Source: Stygiobacter sp. (lineage in GTDB: Bacteria; Pseudomonadota; Alphaproteobacteria; Rhodospirillales; Magnetospirillaceae). From it: a stretch of DNA of 64,000 nucleotides. A model generated the notes under the pieces. That model made no database searches. It saw nothing but the letters and a program-made list of their open reading frames with translations, and was not told where the DNA came from. Shown piece after piece: positions 51,390-61,808 of the stretch. The DNA lies in NCBI GenBank assembly GCA_006218045.1, contig VBWB01000014.1, positions 1 to 64,000 on the forward strand. The letters are read 5' to 3'. A program made the position numbers and the translations under genes. Within the stretch, counting starts at the first letter, position 1; each line of letters begins with the position of its first letter.

Positions 51390-51427
51390 ACTCCCCCGAC
51401 GCAGAACGCGTCAATGGATGGGGGAGT
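51390..51427 (+). promoter_or_regulatory. Nested hairpin masking the ribosome site of the next gene
   Basis: ACTCCCCC (51390-51397) pairs perfectly with GGGGGAGT (51420-51427). Inside it, GACGC (51398-51402) pairs with GCGTC (51408-51412). The right arm contains the only good Shine-Dalgarno sequence (GGGGAG) for the ATG at 51436, and also covers an in-frame ATG at 51418. If the fold forms in the mRNA, translation would be off. Confidence 0.55.
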
Positions 51428-51435
51428 CAGGCAGA

Positions 51436-52176
51436 ATGGCCACCGATCACTTCACCGCCGAACCCGCCCCCGCCGAACTGGGGGTGGTCCAGGCGACCCT
51501 GGATGGCATGGATGCCATCGAGAACCTGCTGTGCCGCATGCGCAGTCTGGCCCTGATCGCGCAAGCCACCCCGCAGCCGGGCGAACGGCGCGCCCTGGCT
51601 CGCGGTTTCGACCAGTTGCGCCGTGACCTCGACCTGATCGCCGCCGGCACCTTGGATATCGACAAGGCCTGCGGCGAAGGCCAGATTTCTCCGGCCGAAT
51701 ATCAGCAATCCTCACACGCGGTCATCGCCGTCTGCGAAGCCGACGGCAACAATGCCTGGCTGCGCCTGTCGGGACTGCCGCCCCGGTGCCGCTTTCCCGC
51801 CGGTGACCGCCGGTTCGTCGACGCCGATGCCGATGGCAATCTGGAGCTGACCCGCTTGGACGGTCCCGCCTGCAAGAATGCCGTCTTCGACAACATCTAT
51901 GATCTGTTGCATGGCGACACGGTGGTGGTGCGCTCGTCCATCGACATGGCCATCGCCGTCAACGGCACCAGCCACCCCGATCTGTGCCTGCACATCCACC
52001 GCATCGATCACGGCTGGGGCAGCATGTTCGGCCATGCCCAGGCCATCGAAAGGTCACTGGCCCAAACCGGCACGGCACTGGACGGCTTGCATTGCATCGC
52101 CAACAGCTTCGGCGCCTATGTCTACCGGCTCTATCAACGCTACGGCTTTGGTGACAGCCCGGCCAACGATATGTGA
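51436..52176 (+). CDS. Hypothetical protein of unknown function
   Basis: A protein of 246 residues (252 if the ATG at 51418 is used). The N-terminal 75 residues are helical (ATLDGMDAIENLLCRMRSLA; ARGFDQLRRDLDLIAAG) and look faintly like the helices of flagellin-type coiled coils. The rest is a mixed fold with many His and Cys (DLCLHIHRIDHGWGSMFGHA). No signal, no membrane span, no family I recognise. It lies between phnE and an AraC regulator, so a link to phosphonates is possible but unproven. Its start is controlled by a hairpin (51390-51427). Confidence 0.7.
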   Translation: MATDHFTAEPAPAELGVVQATLDGMDAIENLLCRMRSLALIAQATPQPGERRALARGFDQLRRDLDLIAAGTLDIDKACGEGQISPAEYQQSSHAVIAVCEADGNNAWLRLSGLPPRCRFPAGDRRFVDADADGNLELTRLDGPACKNAVFDNIYDLLHGDTVVVRSSIDMAIAVNGTSHPDLCLHIHRIDHGWGSMFGHAQAIERSLAQTGTALDGLHCIANSFGAYVYRLYQRYGFGDSPANDM

Positions 52177-52321: not shown

Positions 52322-53386
52322 TTACCGCAAGGCGGCGCGGGCGGTCAGCGACTTGGCCCAGTGCCACATGCGTTCGGCATCCTCGACGGCGCCACCACCA
52401 CTGGGCATGTCCAAATCCAGACCATCCCCCTGCCGCGGTACCCCCATGTCACGGGCCTCGCTCGGGCTCATGCCGAAATGATTGCGGAACAGATGGCTGA
52501 AATGACTGGGCGAGATGAAGCCATAATCCAAGGCAATATCGAAAATGCCGCGATGGGTGTGCCTTACCCCGGTGATGGCCCTGAAACAGGCCATCAGCCG
52601 GCGGCGCTGAATGTGTTCGCGCACGCCGCCATGGGGCTTGAACAGGCGGTAAAGGGTGGCACGCGAACAGCGGAACGTGGCGCAGATGGACTCCACCCCG
52701 AGGTCCGGATCGTTCAGGTGAGCGTCCATATGGCGACAGATCGAGGCGAACATGGCCGTCTGCACCTGGGCGGCGCCGGTATCGCCATGGCCCATCAAGG
52801 CGTCGAGCAGCCCCAGTAGCGACTGGGTCAAAGCGGGAATGCTGTCCATGCCGGCTGAGGGCAACAGGCGCCTGAGCGACAGCATATGGTCGCGCAGCAG
52901 GTGATTGCACACCGAATTATCGGCGAAGACCTGCCCGCGCAAATCGGCCAGATGCGGCACTTCGTCCAGCACCAGCTGGCGCGGCAACACCATCACCACC
53001 GCGTCGGAATCGTCGGCCACCGCCTCGACCGGATAGGCCAGATTGACGCCGTAGACCTTGCCAGGAACGATGGTGTAGTCGATTCCGCCATTGGCAACCT
53101 GGTTGCGACCATCGACGAAGAGTTGCAGGCTCAGATGGTCGGCGTCGTCGTGTCGAGCCATCAAGCCACGGTCACGGCGGAAGGTCCGGCGGCTGAAGAT
53201 GGTGTCGATATAGAGGAAACGGCCCAGATGATATTGATGAATCTCGGGCGCGGTGCCCGTCTGATCCGGTTCGCGGCGCGAACGCGATTCCAGCATGGGG
53301 GCGATGCTTTGGCACCACAGATCCTCCTGCTGCTCGGCAGGCAGGCTTCCGCTCACCAATGACGCCCTGGGTATGAGCGTGCTCAT
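52322..53386 (-). CDS. AraC-family transcription regulator
   Basis: A regulator of 354 residues. The N-terminal 200 residues form a ligand-sensing region of the AraC-binding-domain-like type. The C-terminal part has the two helix-turn-helix motifs (GVESICATFRCSRATLYRLF; FDIALDYGFISPSHFSHLFR). It sits inside the phosphonate region, but its target is unknown. The AT-rich upstream stretch (53387-53511) holds its promoter and a small palindrome ATGGG-N6-CCCAT at 53464-53479, which may be an autoregulatory site. Confidence 0.9.
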   Translation of the reverse strand: MSTLIPRASLVSGSLPAEQQEDLWCQSIAPMLESRSRREPDQTGTAPEIHQYHLGRFLYIDTIFSRRTFRRDRGLMARHDDADHLSLQLFVDGRNQVANGGIDYTIVPGKVYGVNLAYPVEAVADDSDAVVMVLPRQLVLDEVPHLADLRGQVFADNSVCNHLLRDHMLSLRRLLPSAGMDSIPALTQSLLGLLDALMGHGDTGAAQVQTAMFASICRHMDAHLNDPDLGVESICATFRCSRATLYRLFKPHGGVREHIQRRRLMACFRAITGVRHTHRGIFDIALDYGFISPSHFSHLFRNHFGMSPSEARDMGVPRQGDGLDLDMPSGGGAVEDAERMWHWAKSLTARAALR

Positions 53387-53913: not shown

Positions 53914-55059
53914 TTATGACACGCGTATGCCTTGGCGCCACACGGCACGGACCACCGGCATGTCGCCGGTATCGGCGACGCGGACCAGATCGGCGCGCTT
54001 GCCCACATCGATGCTGCCGCGATCGGCAAGGCCGGCCACATCCGCCGGGTTCTTGGCCACCAGGGCCAGGGCAGCGGGCAAATCCCAGCCCAGTTGCCCA
54101 TGATGCAGCATGAAGGCGGCGTGGATCAGGCTGGACGGCACGTAATCCGACGACAGCACGTCCAGGCACTCTTTTTGCGCCAGTTCCAGGGCCGAGACAT
54201 TGCCGGAATGCGAACCGCCACGCACCAGATTGGGGGCGCCCATCAGCACCTTCATGCCGCGCTGGTGCGATTCCTTCGCCGCTTCCACCGTGGTGGGGAA
54301 TTCGGAGAAGTGGATGCCCAGGGACGCCGCTTCCTCCACATGGTCGATGGTCGCGTCGTCATGGGTGGCCAGGATCAGGTCGCGGCCCCGGCAGGCGGTG
54401 GCGATGGCACGGCGATGCGGGTCGGAATATTGGGCACTGGCCGCCTGCTGCTTGGCGGTGAAGGCTTCCATCTGCTCGGCATTGAAGCCGTATTTGCCCA
54501 TGTAATATTCGCGGTACTTGTCCTCGTGCACGAACTGACGCTGGCCCGGGGTATGGTCCATCAGCGAGACGATGCCGACCCGCTTGTCGGTGACGAAGCC
54601 GCTGAACGAGCCGAGGATGTTCTGCGACGACACCTCGCAGCGCAAATGCAGGCGGTGTTCGGCCCGGAACCAGCCCTCATCGGCCACCTCGCCCAGGGTG
54701 TGGATCATGGCCTCCAGATTGGCCTGGCGGGCCGAGCCCTCGATCATGTCGCCCAACGACACCGCGTCGTAGACGGTGGTGATGCCGGCGGCGGCCATCT
54801 GGGCGTCGTGCGACAGGCAGGCCGAGCGGGAATGCCAGCGCACGCCGGGGCGCGGGGTGAAGTGCTTTTCCAGATTGTCGGTGTGCAGTTCGACCAGACC
54901 GGGGATGACGTAATCACCGGCGCAATCCACCGCGCCCGGGGCGGTACAGGCCCCCTTGGCCAGGGAAATGATGCGTCCGCCCATCACCTGCAACGAGCCG
55001 GAGAACACCTCGGACTCGGTGACGATGCGGGCATTGGTCAGGATCAGTTCTTCGTTCAT
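53914..55059 (-). CDS. phnM: Alpha-D-ribose 1-methylphosphonate 5-triphosphate diphosphatase
   Basis: An amidohydrolase-fold enzyme of 381 residues in the C-P lyase pathway; it releases pyrophosphate from the ribose triphosphonate made by PhnGHIL. Metal-binding motifs are visible: [20 protein letters not shown] near residue 57, [14 protein letters not shown] near 228 and [20 protein letters not shown] in the C-terminal part. The stop at 53914 ends the leftward phn operon. phnL precedes it with a 4-base overlap. Confidence 0.95.
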
Positions 55060-55742
55060 GCCGAAACCTCGGGCTGCATGGTGACGATACGCGAAGACAC
55101 CGCCTCGCGCACCTCGTCGTCGTGGAAAACACCGACCAGGGCGACGCCCCTGGCCTTGGCCTCTTCAATCAATTGCACCACCACGGCGCGGTTGGCGGCG
55201 TCCAGCGACGCGGTGGGCTCGTCCAGCAACAAGATGGGGTGGTCGCTGGCGAAACCCCGCGCGATGTTGACGCGTTGCTGCTCGCCGCCGGAAAAGGTCG
55301 CCGGGGCCAGATGCCACAGCCGTTCGGGAATGCGCAGCCGGGCCAGCAAATCCGCTGCCCTGGCGCGGGCCGGTTCCATCGCCGTGCCGGTGGCGCGCAA
55401 CGGCTCGGCCACCACGTCCAGGGCGCTGACGCGGGGAATGGCGCGCAGGAACTGGCTGACATAGCCCATGCTTCGCCGGCGCACGTCGATGATGGCGCGC
55501 GGCTGGGCGGTCGCCACATCGACGTAGGCCGCGCCGTGACGAACCATGATGGCCCCGGCATCGGCCTTGCAATTGCCGTACAGGCAGCGCAGCAAGGTGG
55601 ATTTGCCCGACCCCGAAGGCCCGTGCAAGGTGACGCATTCGCCCGCTTGCACCGACAATTGGGCGCCCATGAACACCGGAATGCTGATGCCGCCCTGGGT
55701 ATGCAGGACATAGGTCTTGGACAGGTCGCGGACGTGGATCAT
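55056..55742 (-). CDS. phnL: C-P lyase subunit PhnL (ABC-type ATPase)
   Basis: A protein of 228 residues with ABC ATPase motifs: Walker [17 protein letters not shown], signature [16 protein letters not shown], Walker [16 protein letters not shown], switch VFHDDEVR. It is a non-transport ATPase needed for the PhnI reaction and C-P lyase complex. Start and stop overlap phnK and phnM by 4 bases. Confidence 0.94.
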
Positions 55743-56515
55743 GGCTGCAACACCGAAGAGACGAGAAGCTGGGTATAGGGGTGGTGCGGATCGTCCAGCA
55801 CCTGATCGGTCAGGCCGTGCTCGACCACTTGGCCGTCCTTCATCACCATCAGCCGATGGGCCAGCAGGCGGGCCACCGCCAGATCATGGGTGACGACGAT
55901 GGCCGACAGCCCCAGATCGGTGACCAGACGGCGCAGCAGGTCGAGCAAGCGGGCCTGTACCGACACGTCCAGGCCGCCGGTGGGTTCATCCATGAACACC
56001 AGACGCGGATGGGTGACCAGATTGCGGGCGATCTGCAAGCGTTGCAGCATGCCGCCGGAAAACGTCGCCGGCTGATCGTCCATGCGGGTCGGGTCGATTT
56101 CCACCTTGTCCAGCCAAGTGCCGGCCTGTTCACGGATCCGGCCGTAATGGCGGGCGCCCACCGCCATCAGCCGTTCGCCCACATTGGCCCCCGCCGACAC
56201 CCCCATGCGCAGGCCGTCGCGCGGGTTCTGGTGGACGATGCCCCAGTCGGTGCGCATCAGCATGCGCTGGCGCGGCTCGGACAGACCATAGACATCGACC
56301 AGCCCCTGGTCGGTGGTGTCGTATTCCACCACACCCGCCGTCGGGCGCTGACGGGTGGACAGGCAGGACAGCAAGGTGGACTTGCCCGATCCCGATTCGC
56401 CGACGATGCCGATGACCTCGCCCGGCCACAATTCAAAGGAAACATCGCGGCAGCCGACACGGGCGCCGTACATGTGGGTCAGGCCGTTGACCCGCAGCAG
56501 GGGGTGATCGTTCAT
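55739..56515 (-). CDS. phnK: C-P lyase subunit PhnK (ABC-type ATPase)
   Basis: An ATPase of 258 residues that docks on the PhnGHIJ core. Walker [16 protein letters not shown], signature [16 protein letters not shown], Walker [16 protein letters not shown], switch VTHDLAVA. It overlaps phnJ and phnL by 4 bases each. Confidence 0.94.
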
Positions 56516-57351
56516 TGTCCCTGCTCCTGTCGCCGTTCACCGCAATAATCACTGTCGGAACACACATACATGCGCCCGCCCTGATCGTCGGTGACCACCT
56601 CGTCCAGAAACGATTCGGTCGACCCACATAGGGCGCAGGCCTGGTCCCAGCGCTGCACCTCGAAGGGATGATCCTCGAAATCCAGGCTTTTGACCGAGGT
56701 ATAGGGCGGCACCGCGTAGATGCGCTTTTCCCGCCCGGCGCCGAACAATTGGAGCGCCGGCGAATTGTCCATCTTGGGATTGTCGAATTTGGGAATGGGC
56801 GAGGGCCGCATCAGGTAGCGGCCGCCCACCAGCACCGGATAATCATAGGTGGTGGCGATGTGGCCGAAGCGGGCGATGTCCTCGTAAAGCTTCACATGCA
56901 TGGCGCCGTAATCGGCCAGGGCATGCATCTTGCGGGTTTCCGTCTCGCGCGGCTCCAGCCAGCGCAGCGGTTCCGGGATCGGCACCTGATAGACCATGAT
57001 CTGGCCCTCGGACAGCGGTGTTTCCGGGATGCGGTGGCGGGTCTGGATCACCGTCGCCTCGCGGGTTTTCTCGGTGGTGGCCACACCAGCGGTACGGGCG
57101 AAGAAGCGGCGGATGGAGACGGCGTTGGTGGTGTCGTCGGCGCCCTGATCGATGACCTTCAGCCGGTCATCGGCGCCGATCACCGCCGCCGTCACCTGGA
57201 TGCCGCCGGTGCCCCAGCCATAGGGCAAGGGCATTTCACGGCTGCCGAACGGCACCTGATAGCCGGGGATGGCCACCGCCTTCAGGATGGCCCGGCGCAG
57301 CATGCGCTTGGTCTGCTCGTCCAAGTAAGCGAAGTTGTAGCCGGTGCTCAT
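56512..57351 (-). CDS. phnJ: C-P lyase subunit PhnJ (radical SAM C-P bond cleaving enzyme)
   Basis: The catalytic subunit of 279 residues that breaks the carbon-phosphorus bond by a radical SAM mechanism. The four cysteines that hold the iron-sulfur cluster are at 239, 242, 264 and 270, spaced C-x2-C-x21-C-x5-C exactly as in E. coli PhnJ. The N-terminus (STGYNFAYLDEQTKRMLRRA) and AIPGYQVPFGSREMPLPYGW are also typical. It overlaps phnI and phnK by 4 bases. Confidence 0.97.
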   Translation of the reverse strand: MSTGYNFAYLDEQTKRMLRRAILKAVAIPGYQVPFGSREMPLPYGWGTGGIQVTAAVIGADDRLKVIDQGADDTTNAVSIRRFFARTAGVATTEKTREATVIQTRHRIPETPLSEGQIMVYQVPIPEPLRWLEPRETETRKMHALADYGAMHVKLYEDIARFGHIATTYDYPVLVGGRYLMRPSPIPKFDNPKMDNSPALQLFGAGREKRIYAVPPYTSVKSLDFEDHPFEVQRWDQACALCGSTESFLDEVVTDDQGGRMYVCSDSDYCGERRQEQGQ

Positions 57352-58421
57352 TGGGCGGCCTCCGCGTTTTCGCGCCGCAAACGCCGGATCATTTCCAGTT
57401 CCGACTGGAAATCGACGTAATGGGGCAGTTTCAGATGCTGGACGAAACCCGAGGCTTCCACATTGTCCGAGTGGTAGAGGACGAATTCCTGGTCCTGGGC
57501 CGGGTTGGTCGCCTGTTCGCCCAAATCCTCCGCCCGCAGCGACCGATCAACCAGGGCCATGGCCATGGCCTTGCGCTCGCCCTGGCCGAAGGTTAGGCCG
57601 TAGCCGCGGGTGAATTGCGGCGGGATATCCTTTGACCCTTTGAACTGGTTGATCATCTGGCATTCGGTCACCGTGATGGTGCCGATATCGATGGCGAAGC
57701 CCAGTTCTTCCGGCACCAGTTCCACCGCCACCTCGCCCATGCGGATCTCGCCGGCGAAAGGATGGGTGTTGCCGTAGCCGCGCTGGCTGGAATAGGCCAG
57801 GGCCAGAAGAAAGCCTTCGTCGCCACGCGCCAGATTCTGCAAACGCAGATCACGCCCGGCAGGAAAGTTGAGGGGTTGCCGGGTCAGATCGCCGGGGAGG
57901 TCGGCGCCATTTCCCGACGGCTCGATCAGCCCTTGGTGATGCAGCACGTCGGTGACCCGGGGCGCTGGCTCCAGCCCGGCTTCGGCGCTTTCCACCGAGG
58001 CGCGCGGCGCGCCTTCGGCGGCCAAGGCGAAATCCAGCAGGCGATGGGTGTAATCATAGGTCGGCCCCAGCACCTGCCCGCCGGGCAGATCCTTGAAGGC
58101 GGCGGAAATGCGCCGCCTTATCGCCATCGCCCCGGTGTCCACCGGTTGGCTGGCGCCGAAGCGCGGCAAGGTGGTGCGATAGGCGCGCAGCAGAAAAATG
58201 GCCTCGACCGCATCGCCCTGGGCCTGCTTCAAGGCCAAAGCTGCCAATTCGCGGTCATAGACCGAGCCCTCGGTCATCACCCGATCCACCGCCAGACCCA
58301 ATTGCTGGTCGATCTGGGTAAGCGTCAGTTCGGGGATGGTTTCGTCGCCGCGCCGATCCTCGGCCAGCAGGGCATGGGCATTGTCGATGGCCTTCTCGCC
58401 ACCTTTCACCGCCACATACAT
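57348..58421 (-). CDS. phnI: C-P lyase core subunit PhnI (purine nucleosidase)
   Basis: A core complex subunit of 357 residues that, with PhnGHL, swaps adenine of ATP for the phosphonate. The start MYVAVKGGEKAIDNAHALLA, the TYDYTHRLLDFALAAEG segment and HPFAGEIRMGEVAVEL are diagnostic. A 3-base gap separates it from phnH, and its stop overlaps phnJ. Confidence 0.95.
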   Translation of the reverse strand: MYVAVKGGEKAIDNAHALLAEDRRGDETIPELTLTQIDQQLGLAVDRVMTEGSVYDRELAALALKQAQGDAVEAIFLLRAYRTTLPRFGASQPVDTGAMAIRRRISAAFKDLPGGQVLGPTYDYTHRLLDFALAAEGAPRASVESAEAGLEPAPRVTDVLHHQGLIEPSGNGADLPGDLTRQPLNFPAGRDLRLQNLARGDEGFLLALAYSSQRGYGNTHPFAGEIRMGEVAVELVPEELGFAIDIGTITVTECQMINQFKGSKDIPPQFTRGYGLTFGQGERKAMAMALVDRSLRAEDLGEQATNPAQDQEFVLYHSDNVEASGFVQHLKLPHYVDFQSELEMIRRLRRENAEAAQ

Positions 58422-58424
58422 GGC

Positions 58425-59030
58425 CTAGCCCTCCAACAGGGTCGAACGCGGCAGACCGGCCAACTGGCCGGGTGCGGCGAACAACAGATCGACACCGCGC
58501 GGGAACAGGGCATGGTTGTCCTGGACCCAGGCCTTGAACGCCGACGGCAATTGACCGGCGGCCAGAATGGCCTGATCGCGGATGCCCGGCCCTTTCAGCC
58601 GCCAAGCCTCGCCGCCATCCAGATGCGGTACCTGGACGATCACCGTGGTCGAGCGGTCGGGATACTCATCGCTGCCCAGATGAAAAGCGGACAGCGGCGG
58701 CATGGACTTGGCGTCGGTGACCAGGGCGAAGCCGGCCTGATCGGGCGCCTCCACCAGCGGACAGCCGCAATGAAAACGCACATAGTCGATCGCGGCGGGC
58801 TGGCGGGCGGCGGGGTCCAGCCACAGCGGCGTCTCGTAATCGGCCAGGGCCAGGATCAGGGCGGCGGCCACCGGATTGAGCGGCTGCGGCGCCACCGGCA
58901 ATACCGGCGCGGTAACGATGGTGCCGGGGCGCGACATGGCCTCCAGCACGGCGCGGAACATCTTTTGCGAATCGGCGACCGGATCATTGAAGCCGGGCAG
59001 CAGGCCGGTCTGGGGGGCTAGTGCGTTCAC
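58425..59030 (-). CDS. phnH: C-P lyase core subunit PhnH
   Basis: A core subunit of 201 residues. The N-terminal GFNDPVADSQKMFRAVLEAM and SRPGTI are the family hallmark, and the C-terminal KGPGIRDQAILAAG is also conserved. A GTG start at 59030 is chosen: it is 4 bases after the phnG stop, has GAGAGGA before it and gives the usual length. The frame stays open further upstream inside phnG. Confidence 0.93.
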   Translation of the reverse strand: MNALAPQTGLLPGFNDPVADSQKMFRAVLEAMSRPGTIVTAPVLPVAPQPLNPVAAALILALADYETPLWLDPAARQPAAIDYVRFHCGCPLVEAPDQAGFALVTDAKSMPPLSAFHLGSDEYPDRSTTVIVQVPHLDGGEAWRLKGPGIRDQAILAAGQLPSAFKAWVQDNHALFPRGVDLLFAAPGQLAGLPRSTLLEG

Positions 59031-59034
59031 GGGC

Positions 59035-59493
59035 TCAATCCTCTCCGCGGACCATGGTGAAGAAATCGACGCGGGTGGCGGCGGCCTTGCGCTCGGCACG
59101 GCCCCGATCGTCGGCAAGCTTGGACTGCAACGGCGCCAGCAGCTTTTCGCCGACCCTCGCCCGCCAGTCCCCGTCCTGCATCAGGGCGTCGGCGATGGCC
59201 GCCATCTCGGCATGGCGGGCCGAACGCCCGGCTACCCAGGCATGACCGACCACACCGTTTTGCAGACGGACCGAGCAGCGGGTCACGGTCATCTCGCCCA
59301 AATTGAACGGACCGCCATCGCCGCCCATGCGCCCGCGCACCATCACCAGCCCCACTTCCGGGCGGCGCAAATACTCCCAGGCGGGCAGATCGGACAGACC
59401 GGCCCAGAGTTGGACGACATGGCTTTCATCCGACTTGGCCAACACCCCCATCCATTGGCGGCGGGCGTCTGTATCTTTGGTTTGCTGCTGCAT
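59035..59493 (-). CDS. phnG: C-P lyase core subunit PhnG
   Basis: The first gene of the leftward operon, 152 residues. Characteristic segments are RRQWMGVLAKSDESHVVQLW and EVGLVMVRGRMGGDGGPFNL, with NGVVGHAWVAGRSARHAEMA. The start at 59493 (MQQQTKD) is preferred to an upstream alternative at 59520, because the latter would put the putative PhnF operator inside the coding region. PhnG pairs with PhnH and PhnI. Confidence 0.94.
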   Translation of the reverse strand: MQQQTKDTDARRQWMGVLAKSDESHVVQLWAGLSDLPAWEYLRRPEVGLVMVRGRMGGDGGPFNLGEMTVTRCSVRLQNGVVGHAWVAGRSARHAEMAAIADALMQDGDWRARVGEKLLAPLQSKLADDRGRAERKAAATRVDFFTMVRGED

Positions 59494-59508
59494 GGACAAA
59501 TCCGAAAA

Positions 59509-59520
59509 AGGTCTAGACAT
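59509..59520. promoter_or_regulatory. Candidate PhnF operator 3 (between phnG and phnF)
   Basis: AGGTCTAGACAT with palindromic core GTCTAGAC (59511-59518). It lies 15 bases before the phnG start and 68 bases before the phnF start. It could repress both, including autoregulation of phnF. Confidence 0.6.
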
Positions 59521-59588
59521 CTATATGTTCTGACGGCACAATGCCCTTATCGACCCTGACTTTTCAAGCGCAACAAGGTGAAACTTCC

Positions 59589-60326
59589 ATGACGACGTCC
59601 GACCTGTCCCGCGGTGCCGGCACCGCGCTTTGGCGGCAAATCGCCGAAACCCTGGAACGCGATATCCTTGCCGGCAAGGTGGCGCCCGGCCACAAGCTGC
59701 CGACCGAGCACGAATTGGCCGGCCAGTTCGACGTCAACCGCCATACCGTGCGCCGGGCCATCGCCGCCCTGGGGGAAAAGGGTTTGGTGCGCATCGAACA
59801 GGGCCGCGGCACCTTCGTGCAGGAAAGCGTGCTGGAATATCAGGTGCGCCGCCGCACCCGATTCTCCGAAAACATCGCCGCCAACAAGCGCGAGGCTTCG
59901 GGCCGGATCGTCCGGGTGGTGGAACTGCCGGCGGAAGGGGCGGTGGCGAAGGCGCTGGAAATCCGCAAGGGTAGCCCGGTGGTGATGATCGAACGCCTGG
60001 CCGAGGCCGATGGCCGCCCCATGTCGGTCTCCGCCCATTATTTCCCCAAGGGCCGCTTCCCCGACATCGCCGCCATCTATCAGCAATCGGGCTCGTTCAC
60101 CCAGGCCCTGGTGCATTACGGCATCGCCGACCCCACCCGCCGCACCACCCGGGTCACCGCCCGCACGGCGCGGGCCGGCGATTCGCAGCTGCTGCAACAA
60201 CCGCCCAACAAGCCGATCCTGATGAGCGAGGGCATCAACATCGATGCCAGCGGTCGACCGGTGGAATACACCGTGGCGCGCTGGGCGTCGGACCGTGTGC
60301 AACTGGTGTTCGAGCCGGGCAGCTGA
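59589..60326 (+). CDS. phnF: Phosphonate operon transcription regulator PhnF (GntR/HutC family)
   Basis: A repressor of 245 residues. The N-terminal winged helix (IAETLERDILAGKVAPGHKL; NRHTVRRAIAALGEKGLVRI) is of GntR type, and the C-terminal UTRA ligand-binding domain follows (residues about 95-240), as in HutC and PhnF. It is divergent from phnG. AAGGTGAAA precedes the ATG. It probably senses a phosphonate or intermediate and controls the flanking operons. Confidence 0.93.
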   Translation: MTTSDLSRGAGTALWRQIAETLERDILAGKVAPGHKLPTEHELAGQFDVNRHTVRRAIAALGEKGLVRIEQGRGTFVQESVLEYQVRRRTRFSENIAANKREASGRIVRVVELPAEGAVAKALEIRKGSPVVMIERLAEADGRPMSVSAHYFPKGRFPDIAAIYQQSGSFTQALVHYGIADPTRRTTRVTARTARAGDSQLLQQPPNKPILMSEGINIDASGRPVEYTVARWASDRVQLVFEPGS

Positions 60327-60346: not shown

Positions 60347-60358
60347 AGGTCTAGTCAT
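60347..60358. promoter_or_regulatory. Candidate PhnF operator 4 (before DUF1045 gene)
   Basis: AGGTCTAGTCAT differs by one base from the site at 59509, and both are followed by an ATATG a few bases later. It lies in the 121-base gap between phnF and the DUF1045 gene. Confidence 0.55.
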
Positions 60359-60447
60359 CCGGATATGTGTCACACAACGTTCACCCCACGATCCGCACAA
60401 GGGCACGTATGAGGACGCCGCCTGCCGATGCGAAAGACCGAAGCGCC

Positions 60448-61098
60448 ATGTCCGTACGTTACGCCCTTTACTTCATCCCCGAGGACGGCACCGCCCTGGC
60501 CCGCCTGGGCGACGACTGGCTGACCGCCCTGCCCGCTGATCTGACCGATGCGGCGCGGGTATATGGCTTTCACGCCACCTTGAAGGCGCCGTTCCGCCTG
60601 GCCCCCGGCAAGACCGAGGCGCAGTTGCGCGACGAATGCGCTGCCCTGGCCCGCCAATCCGCCGCCATCGTCGAAGTGCCCCCGGTGCTCGCCCGCCTGC
60701 ACGGCTTCTACGCCCTGCGCCCCGGCCGGGCCGCGCCAGCCCTTCAGGATCTGGCGGCAACCTGCGTCCGCCGCCTTGACCCCTTTCGCGCCCCCTTGAA
60801 CGAGCGCGAATTGGCCAAGCGGCTGGCGGCGCCCCTTTCTGATCGGCAACGCAATCTGCTGGGCCAGTGGGGCTACCCCTACGTCTTCGATGAATACCGC
60901 TTCCACCTGACCCTGACCCGCCGTGTGGGCCAGGCCGAAGTGCCCACGGTCGAGGCGCTGTTGCGGCCGCTGGTGGCCGGGGCCGAGGCCGAGCCGCTCG
61001 GGATCGCCTCCATCTGCCTGATGCGCCAGAGCGATGGCGACGTCTTCACCTTGTTGCAGCGTTTCACCCTGGAGGGATCATGCGCGTCGTCAGTCTGA
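60448..61098 (+). CDS. DUF1045 phosphonate-associated 2H phosphoesterase-like protein
   Basis: A protein of 216 residues found in many phosphonate clusters. Two HxT motifs (FHATLKAPFRL near residue 34 and FHLTLTRRV near 152) are spaced as in 2H phosphoesterases, which act on cyclic phosphates. The start MSVRYALYFIPEDGTALARL is typical of the family; ATG at 60409 is an alternative. Its last 19 bases overlap the next gene. A role on 5-phosphoribosyl 1,2-cyclic phosphate in place of PhnP is an inference. Confidence 0.85.
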   Translation: MSVRYALYFIPEDGTALARLGDDWLTALPADLTDAARVYGFHATLKAPFRLAPGKTEAQLRDECAALARQSAAIVEVPPVLARLHGFYALRPGRAAPALQDLAATCVRRLDPFRAPLNERELAKRLAAPLSDRQRNLLGQWGYPYVFDEYRFHLTLTRRVGQAEVPTVEALLRPLVAGAEAEPLGIASICLMRQSDGDVFTLLQRFTLEGSCASSV

Positions 61099-61808
61099 AC
61101 ACTTGGAAGGGCGACGGCGCCTATGCCGCCCGTCTGGCCGCCATGACCGAGGCCCTGGCCGAATTGCGCCCCGACGTGGTGCTGTTGCAGGAAGTCCTCG
61201 ACGCCCCGGCCCTGGGCCTGCATACCGGCAATACCATCGCCGCCCATCTGGGCTGTCACGTGGCCAATCTGGCCTTGCGGGAAAAGCCGCGCACCATCGA
61301 AGGCCTCCGCGCCGACAGCCGGTCGGGACTGGCGGTGCTGTCGCGCTTTCCCATTCGCTCGACCTTGTCCATCCCCCTGCCCGACCATGCCGACGACGGC
61401 GAACGCGCTGCCCTGGTGGTGGAAATCGACGCCCCCGCCGGGCCGCTGACGGTGACCAACCTGCATTTGACCCATCTGCCGCAAAATGACCTGCGCCAAC
61501 GGCAACTGGCCGCCGCCCAGCAGGTGACCAAGCGTCCGGGCACCGCCCTGATCGGCGGCGATTTCAATGCGCCCATCGAAAGCTTTGCCTTGAACACCAC
61601 CGGCTGGCGCGATTGCCGCAGCGAATTGGGCGAGCCCGCGCGATCGACCCTGACCGGCCAGCCCGACGGCCCGTGCATCGACCATCTGTTGTGGGCGGGC
61701 CGTGGACGCCCGCCCAAATCCTGGCGCGTCGATCTCGACCGGCTGACCCCGGATGGCCAGCCGATGATCAGCGATCATTGCGCCGTAGTGGTCGATCTCG
61801 CCGATTAG
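61080..61808 (+). CDS. Endonuclease/exonuclease/phosphatase (EEP) family hydrolase
   Basis: A metal-dependent phosphoesterase of 242 residues. Motifs of the EEP superfamily are seen: SLNTWKG, VVLLQEV, NLHLTHLPQ, GGDFNAP, CIDHLLW and SDHCAVVV. A good ribosome site (GAGGGA) lies within the end of the DUF1045 gene, and the 19-base overlap shows the two are coupled. Such enzymes cleave phosphodiesters or sugar phosphates. Its place in a PhnF-linked unit suggests phosphonate salvage; the substrate is unknown. Confidence 0.87.
   Translation: MRVVSLNTWKGDGAYAARLAAMTEALAELRPDVVLLQEVLDAPALGLHTGNTIAAHLGCHVANLALREKPRTIEGLRADSRSGLAVLSRFPIRSTLSIPLPDHADDGERAALVVEIDAPAGPLTVTNLHLTHLPQNDLRQRQLAAAQQVTKRPGTALIGGDFNAPIESFALNTTGWRDCRSELGEPARSTLTGQPDGPCIDHLLWAGRGRPPKSWRVDLDRLTPDGQPMISDHCAVVVDLAD

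Follow-up and report, generated by a model that had tools for sequence, protein, structure and literature searches.

A seemingly new EEP phosphoesterase clade tied to C-P lyase clusters, and a DUF1045 protein as likely stand-in for PhnP, in a Magnetospirillum-like phn locus

The window, i.e. the whole 64,000-nt stretch analyzed here (positions 1 to 64,000 of contig VBWB01000014.1, Stygiobacter sp.), belongs to a 4.33 Mb genome and carries a divergent carbon–phosphorus (C-P) lyase locus, with phnG to phnM on the minus strand and with phnF, a DUF1045 gene and a gene of the endonuclease/exonuclease/phosphatase (EEP) superfamily on the plus strand. The latter two genes are the subject of this report. 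An earlier note on this DNA had placed their reading frames, overlapping by 19 bases, behind phnF in a C-P lyase set without phnN and phnP, which is borne out by the frames, Pfam and TIGR02325, and by the finding of neither phnN nor phnP within the window. Among the matches listed, the closest named relatives of the EEP protein are from Magnetospirillum, and the phn locus is Magnetospirillum-like. Its features are as follows:

60448..61098, plus strand: DUF1045, a 2H phosphoesterase and predicted PhnP stand-in, which likely opens 5-phosphoribosyl 1,2-cyclic phosphate
61080..61808, plus strand: EEP-fold phosphoesterase of the C-P-lyase-associated clade
61080..61098, plus strand: 19-base overlap of the DUF1045 and EEP genes
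59541..60326, plus strand: phnF, GntR-UTRA regulator upstream of DUF1045 (TIGR02325, 276.4 bits versus a cut-off of 156.8)
59510..59521, no strand assigned: putative PhnF box 1, phnG/phnF intergenic, GGTCTAGACATC
60348..60359, no strand assigned: putative PhnF box 2, phnF/DUF1045 intergenic, GGTCTAGTCATC
59035..59520, minus strand: phnG, in the same position and order as the annotated phnG of the plasmid locus L144 (see below)
58425..59117, minus strand: phnH, longest frame (TIGR03292, above cut-off); as this frame overlaps phnG, the true start is probably later
57348..58421, minus strand: phnI, in the same position and order as the annotated PhnI of L144; no NCBIfam match at 1e-3
56512..57351, minus strand: phnJ (PF06007, 507.3 bits)
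55739..56515, minus strand: phnK (TIGR02323, above cut-off)
55056..55742, minus strand: phnL (TIGR02324, above cut-off)
53914..55059, minus strand: phnM (TIGR02318, above cut-off)

The sequence GGTCTAGWCATC has exactly two copies in the window, one at 59510 before phnG/phnF and one at 60348 before DUF1045, while 0.12 matches are expected by chance at one mismatch or fewer and two copies occurred in 0 of 100 shuffles. Box 2 is kept in all five close loci (the window, L037, L038, L041 and L042); in L030, from a more distant member of the genus, it is missing from the corresponding position. The shared operator proposed earlier thus stands as an exactly repeated sequence, its operator role being putative. 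The gene overlap recurs in L012, L013, L041 and L042 and not in L014; together with the operator box, it makes co-transcription of DUF1045 and EEP likely. Both genes are under purifying selection, with ratios of nonsynonymous to synonymous substitution (dN/dS) versus two congeners of 0.13 and 0.37 for EEP and of 0.27 and 0.51 for DUF1045.

The EEP protein matches PF03372 (E 4.6e-18, above cut-off) and no NCBIfam model, and its score, fold and conserved residues place it in the EEP superfamily. Fold and conserved residues are common with TDP2, nocturnin, ANGEL2, the mannosyl-6-phosphatase Bt3783 and sphingomyelinase, at 14–23% identity to superfamily structures among the 50 matches listed; the closest solved structures are mostly TDP2, a DNA-repair phosphodiesterase. 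A tree was built from the top 75 of 104 profile matches less duplicates (72 rows; the fragments L026 and L027 and the plasmid case L144 are outside it), in which the window protein falls inside a supported clade of 27 rows. This clade, which was defined here from the same sequences used to test membership, is set apart within the superfamily by R67-x-K69-x-R71 (window numbering): the three residues are present in 27/27 clade rows, and each in at most 1 of the 45 other bacterial EEPs compared. The tree has 19 cluster-linked rows, which come from Pseudomonadota, Thermodesulfobacteriota, Acidobacteriota and Chloroflexota, and every one of them lies inside this clade.

Linkage to C-P lyase was likewise evident across genomes, several of which are metagenome-assembled genomes (MAGs); genomes that share a genus are counted separately although they are not independent. 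EEP relatives at E 1e-10 or better were found in 17 of the 150 genomes of the order, 15 of which carry PhnJ (p 1.5e-6), with EEP lying within 8 kb of PhnJ in nine of the 17. In a genome scan that kept 80 of 143 relatives, eight of the nine best loci sit in C-P lyase clusters (Magnetospirillum, Acidobacteriota, Chloroflexota, Comamonadaceae, another betaproteobacterium and Desulfobacterales), and in the 71 weaker loci the sole phn-query match counted was one weak PhnF match. A phylum sample of 397 genomes, with six candidates scored per genome, yielded PhnJ above cut-off in 103 genomes and 14 EEP profile matches; the three best of these (317, 216 and 181 bits) lie 4–6 kb from PhnJ, and the other 11 include one genome with PhnJ, about 700 kb away. 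DUF1045, phnN and EEP also occur within a complete phn cluster on an IncP conjugative plasmid of Acidovorax sp. T1 (L144, NZ_CP021650.1 33156-63911), the record of which labels the EEP homologue only as 'endonuclease/exonuclease/phosphatase family protein'. The association of EEP with phosphonate metabolism, as read earlier from the window, is right, and from linkage and phylogeny the EEP protein can be described with high confidence as belonging to a clade tied to C-P lyase clusters, in which it is read as an optional phosphoesterase that is cytosolic and metal-dependent.

A row of phnF, a second phnM and EEP was observed in an Acidobacteriota MAG (L044 8030-10795) and in two genomes of the window's class (L129 10830-13431 and L130 11112-13759); L044 and L129 form a pair in the EEP tree, and all three loci group together in that of phnM, suggesting transfer of the cluster between phyla. 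Elsewhere, two tandem clade EEP genes were seen outside phn clusters, beside infC-like frames (read from frames), in L023 and L021 (G019:C20 and G092:C3).

The genome check for phnN and phnP gave a divided answer. A phnN gene is present on another contig (C29:81631-82152; TIGR02322, 207 bits versus a cut-off of 156), i.e. ribose 1,5-bisphosphokinase is encoded above cut-off, but outside the phn locus. It lies directly downstream of genes of the pstS (TIGR02136, below cut-off), phoU (TIGR02135, above cut-off) and phoB (TIGR02154, above cut-off) types, an arrangement that spans 3563-10153 of L008 and suggests that the Pho system controls phnN separately from the phn locus. No protein of the genome reaches the TIGR03307 cut-off of 272.25 bits for PhnP, the best being a metallo-hydrolase on C22 at 52.9 bits, which adjoins tatD and scores 232.5 bits with another metallo-beta-lactamase model, itself below that model's cut-off. 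PhnP over cut-off was likewise found in 0 of the 150 genomes of the order. Weak PhnP-model matches occur in 97 of them, 57 of which are without PhnJ, and the C22 protein is thus unlikely to be a real PhnP, yet such matches are commoner with PhnJ, as taken up below.

The occurrence of EEP was independent of both PhnN and DUF1045. Among the 51 PhnJ genomes of the order, EEP was present in 13/45 with PhnN (including one PhnN called from a fragment just below cut-off) versus 2/6 without, and in 14/48 with DUF1045 versus 1/3 without (Fisher p = 1.0 for each, the groups without being small). Eleven further genome entries, of which G542 (Roseospirillum) repeats G039, have DUF1045 in nine, PhnN-like genes in ten (eight above cut-off) and no PhnP over cut-off; DUF1045 is missing from two, those of Chloroflexota and Desulfobacterales, and in the Chloroflexota locus a metallo-hydrolase lies between EEP and phnM, its best model being a cyclic-nucleotide phosphodiesterase, below that model's cut-off. 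With adjacency taken as the next gene among those detected by the queries, the EEP neighbours in 21 EEP-phn loci are DUF1045 (6), phnM (6), a hexapeptide transferase (6; TIGR03308 in the one tested), phnN (2) and phnE (2), some loci being counted twice. The six DUF1045-EEP neighbours all come from the window's genus, which rules out that EEP is tied to DUF1045. That EEP substitutes for PhnN was rejected too, since the genome has phnN and the two occur independently. A special PhnM paralogue travelling with EEP was also ruled out: phnM adjoins EEP in six loci and is separated from it by a single gene in L030, a 28-row PhnM tree does not cluster these seven loci (5 label changes; 65/500 shuffles as low), and 9/9 PhnM proteins tested match PhnM models.

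DUF1045 matches PF06299 at E 1.5e-54 (184.7 bits versus a gathering score of 24.3), has H-x-T/S motifs at H42-A-T44 and H153-L-T155, and its predicted fold agrees with the 2H fold; both motif histidines are invariant in 15 DUF1045 rows, the second motif ending in T or S. By motifs and predicted fold it is a 2H phosphoesterase. PDB sequence searches with it gave nothing meaningful, and identities to the 2H proteins Arabidopsis Appr>p cyclic nucleotide phosphodiesterase and E. coli LigT, which act on nucleotide substrates, were 10–15%. Its fold is unrelated to that of PhnP, the phosphoribosyl cyclic phosphodiesterase of metallo-beta-lactamase fold for which the same step is known. In another lineage PhnP has an alternative in PhnPP, a cyclic phosphodiesterase of PHP fold that performs both ring opening and phosphate removal alone. 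DUF1045 is present in 48 of the 51 PhnJ genomes of the order. That a 2H enzyme opens the cyclic phosphate, as the earlier note had it, is supported by the motifs, the predicted fold and this co-occurrence, but the idea is not new: according to excerpts of PMC3840354, PMC8235418 and PMC10574752, a protein of phn operons named rcsF, which we infer to be the same as DUF1045, has already been proposed as a PhnP analogue, and the excerpts do not mention an EEP partner. DUF1045 is accordingly a likely PhnP stand-in; what the present work contributes to the older proposal is a test of co-occurrence across whole genomes and a matching fold.

These results can be arranged into a pathway. C-P lyase leaves 5-phosphoribosyl 1,2-cyclic phosphate, the ring of which is very probably opened by DUF1045, standing in for PhnP, to give ribose 1,5-bisphosphate, and PhnN from the distant gene would then make phosphoribosyl pyrophosphate (PRPP). 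DUF1045 and the distant phnN would complete the standard route, for which EEP is not needed. Instead, EEP may strip a phosphate from some phosphoribosyl by-product or overflow intermediate of the pathway that bears several charges and is held by the R-x-K-x-R strand; this substrate is favoured by the charged strand and the sugar-phosphatase kin, and is proposed tentatively. The whole reading, with DUF1045 for PhnP, a distant PhnN and EEP as an optional phosphoesterase on a phosphoribosyl side product, stands at somewhat under even chances.

Several observations weigh against it. DUF1045 scored 211.4 bits with TIGR03223 (phosphonate operon protein, a hypothetical equivalog), under the cut-off of 248.95, its match starting at model position 47; it also occurs without a PhnJ match in 8 of the 150 genomes of the order (G031, G048, G080, G082, G097, G105, G113 and G137), where it may serve another use. 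Weak PhnP-model matches occur in 40/51 genomes with PhnJ versus 57/99 without (p 0.012), leaving room for a weakly related metallo-hydrolase as helper. EEP itself is rare, a match above 180 bits being found in 3 of the 103 PhnJ genomes of the phylum sample, and 8 of the 27 clade rows are not cluster-linked, three of the eight coming from two genomes without PhnJ. Finally, EEP adjoins transporter or hexapeptide transferase genes in 8 of the 21 loci (L032, L035, L036, L045, L048, L121, L122 and L144), a placement that is also compatible with EEP acting ahead of C-P cleavage.

The last point favours a phosphonate ester as EEP substrate, namely that EEP cleaves imported esters to free phosphonates before ribosylation and so widens the substrate range of C-P lyase. 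An optional gene is what such a role predicts, EEP kin cleave phosphodiesters, and an excerpt of PMC5649143 (2017) only postulated phosphatase-like enzymes for the cleavage of polysaccharide phosphonate esters. However, elsewhere EEP adjoins phnM, phnN or DUF1045 rather than import genes, and the invariant R-x-K-x-R suggests a ligand more highly charged than a monoester, so this explanation is judged somewhat unlikely. An EEP that is a general nuclease or phosphatase merely hitchhiking in phosphate-scavenging loci would suit the breadth of PF03372 and the TDP2-like structures, but is improbable given that several phyla show the linkage, with gene orders that differ, that it matches a single signature clade, and that PhnJ accompanies 15 of the 17 EEP genomes of the order.

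Two further explanations give EEP a step after DUF1045. In one, DUF1045 yields ribose 2,5-bisphosphate, from which EEP takes off the 2-phosphate, leaving ribose 5-phosphate and inorganic phosphate and bypassing PhnN, so that two enzymes would share the work of PhnPP; the gene overlap in five of six loci of the window's genus and the structural kinship with nocturnin, a 2'-phosphatase of NADPH, speak for it. It is nevertheless quite improbable, since 34 of the 48 PhnJ genomes with DUF1045 have no EEP, 13 of the 15 EEP genomes with PhnJ have PhnN, and EEP lies beside a metallo-hydrolase in L045 of G544, a genome without a DUF1045 match; moreover, a 2H relative acting on ribose 1'',2''-cyclic phosphate gives the 1''-phosphate. 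The joint replacement of PhnP and PhnN by the pair, which the earlier note had put forward, agrees with the likely co-transcription and the lack of phnP over cut-off, and its half concerning DUF1045 and PhnP is retained. The half in which EEP handles the next phosphate is contradicted by phnN on C29, by the coexistence of EEP with DUF1045 and phnN, as in the order phnF-DUF1045-phnN-EEP of L046 and L049, and by the lack of enrichment where either is missing; a hydrolase should also be unable to make PRPP from ribose 1,5-bisphosphate, and the joint replacement is thus hardly credible.

We therefore read EEP as an optional extra in C-P lyase clusters of several bacterial phyla and not as a replacement, i.e. 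as a predicted dedicated accessory phosphoesterase. In natural waters and soils, C-P lyase frees phosphate and, where methylphosphonate is the substrate, methane; an unnamed enzyme recurring in its clusters points to a step that the textbook pathway lacks, be it ribosyl phosphate disposal or phosphonate ester use. On balance it is probable that C-P lyase systems have in this clade an accessory component so far undescribed, which has travelled with entire phn clusters, across phyla and on a conjugative plasmid, and which adds a second capability: a side exit by which phosphoribosyl intermediates give up phosphate, or the use of phosphonate esters, whose cleaving enzyme the excerpt of PMC5649143 only postulated. 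Within the literature searched, the clade seems to be a new, apparently undescribed enzyme family, in distinction to the replacement of PhnP by DUF1045. No description of an EEP in phn clusters was found there, although the slash-written family name is unsearchable and this is no proof of absence; in excerpts of the C-P lyase papers PMC4046663 and PMC3610870, 'exonuclease' has other uses and denotes no phn-cluster EEP. The signature makes the clade easy to find, and both candidate substrates are assayable.

Between phnE and the regulator gene next to it, the window also encodes a 252-aa protein (51418-52176, plus strand) that has no Pfam or NCBIfam match and is kept in the Magnetospirillum phn loci L037, L038 and L041. 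The regulator, read from its frame as AraC-type (52322-53386, minus strand), occupies the same place in these three loci.
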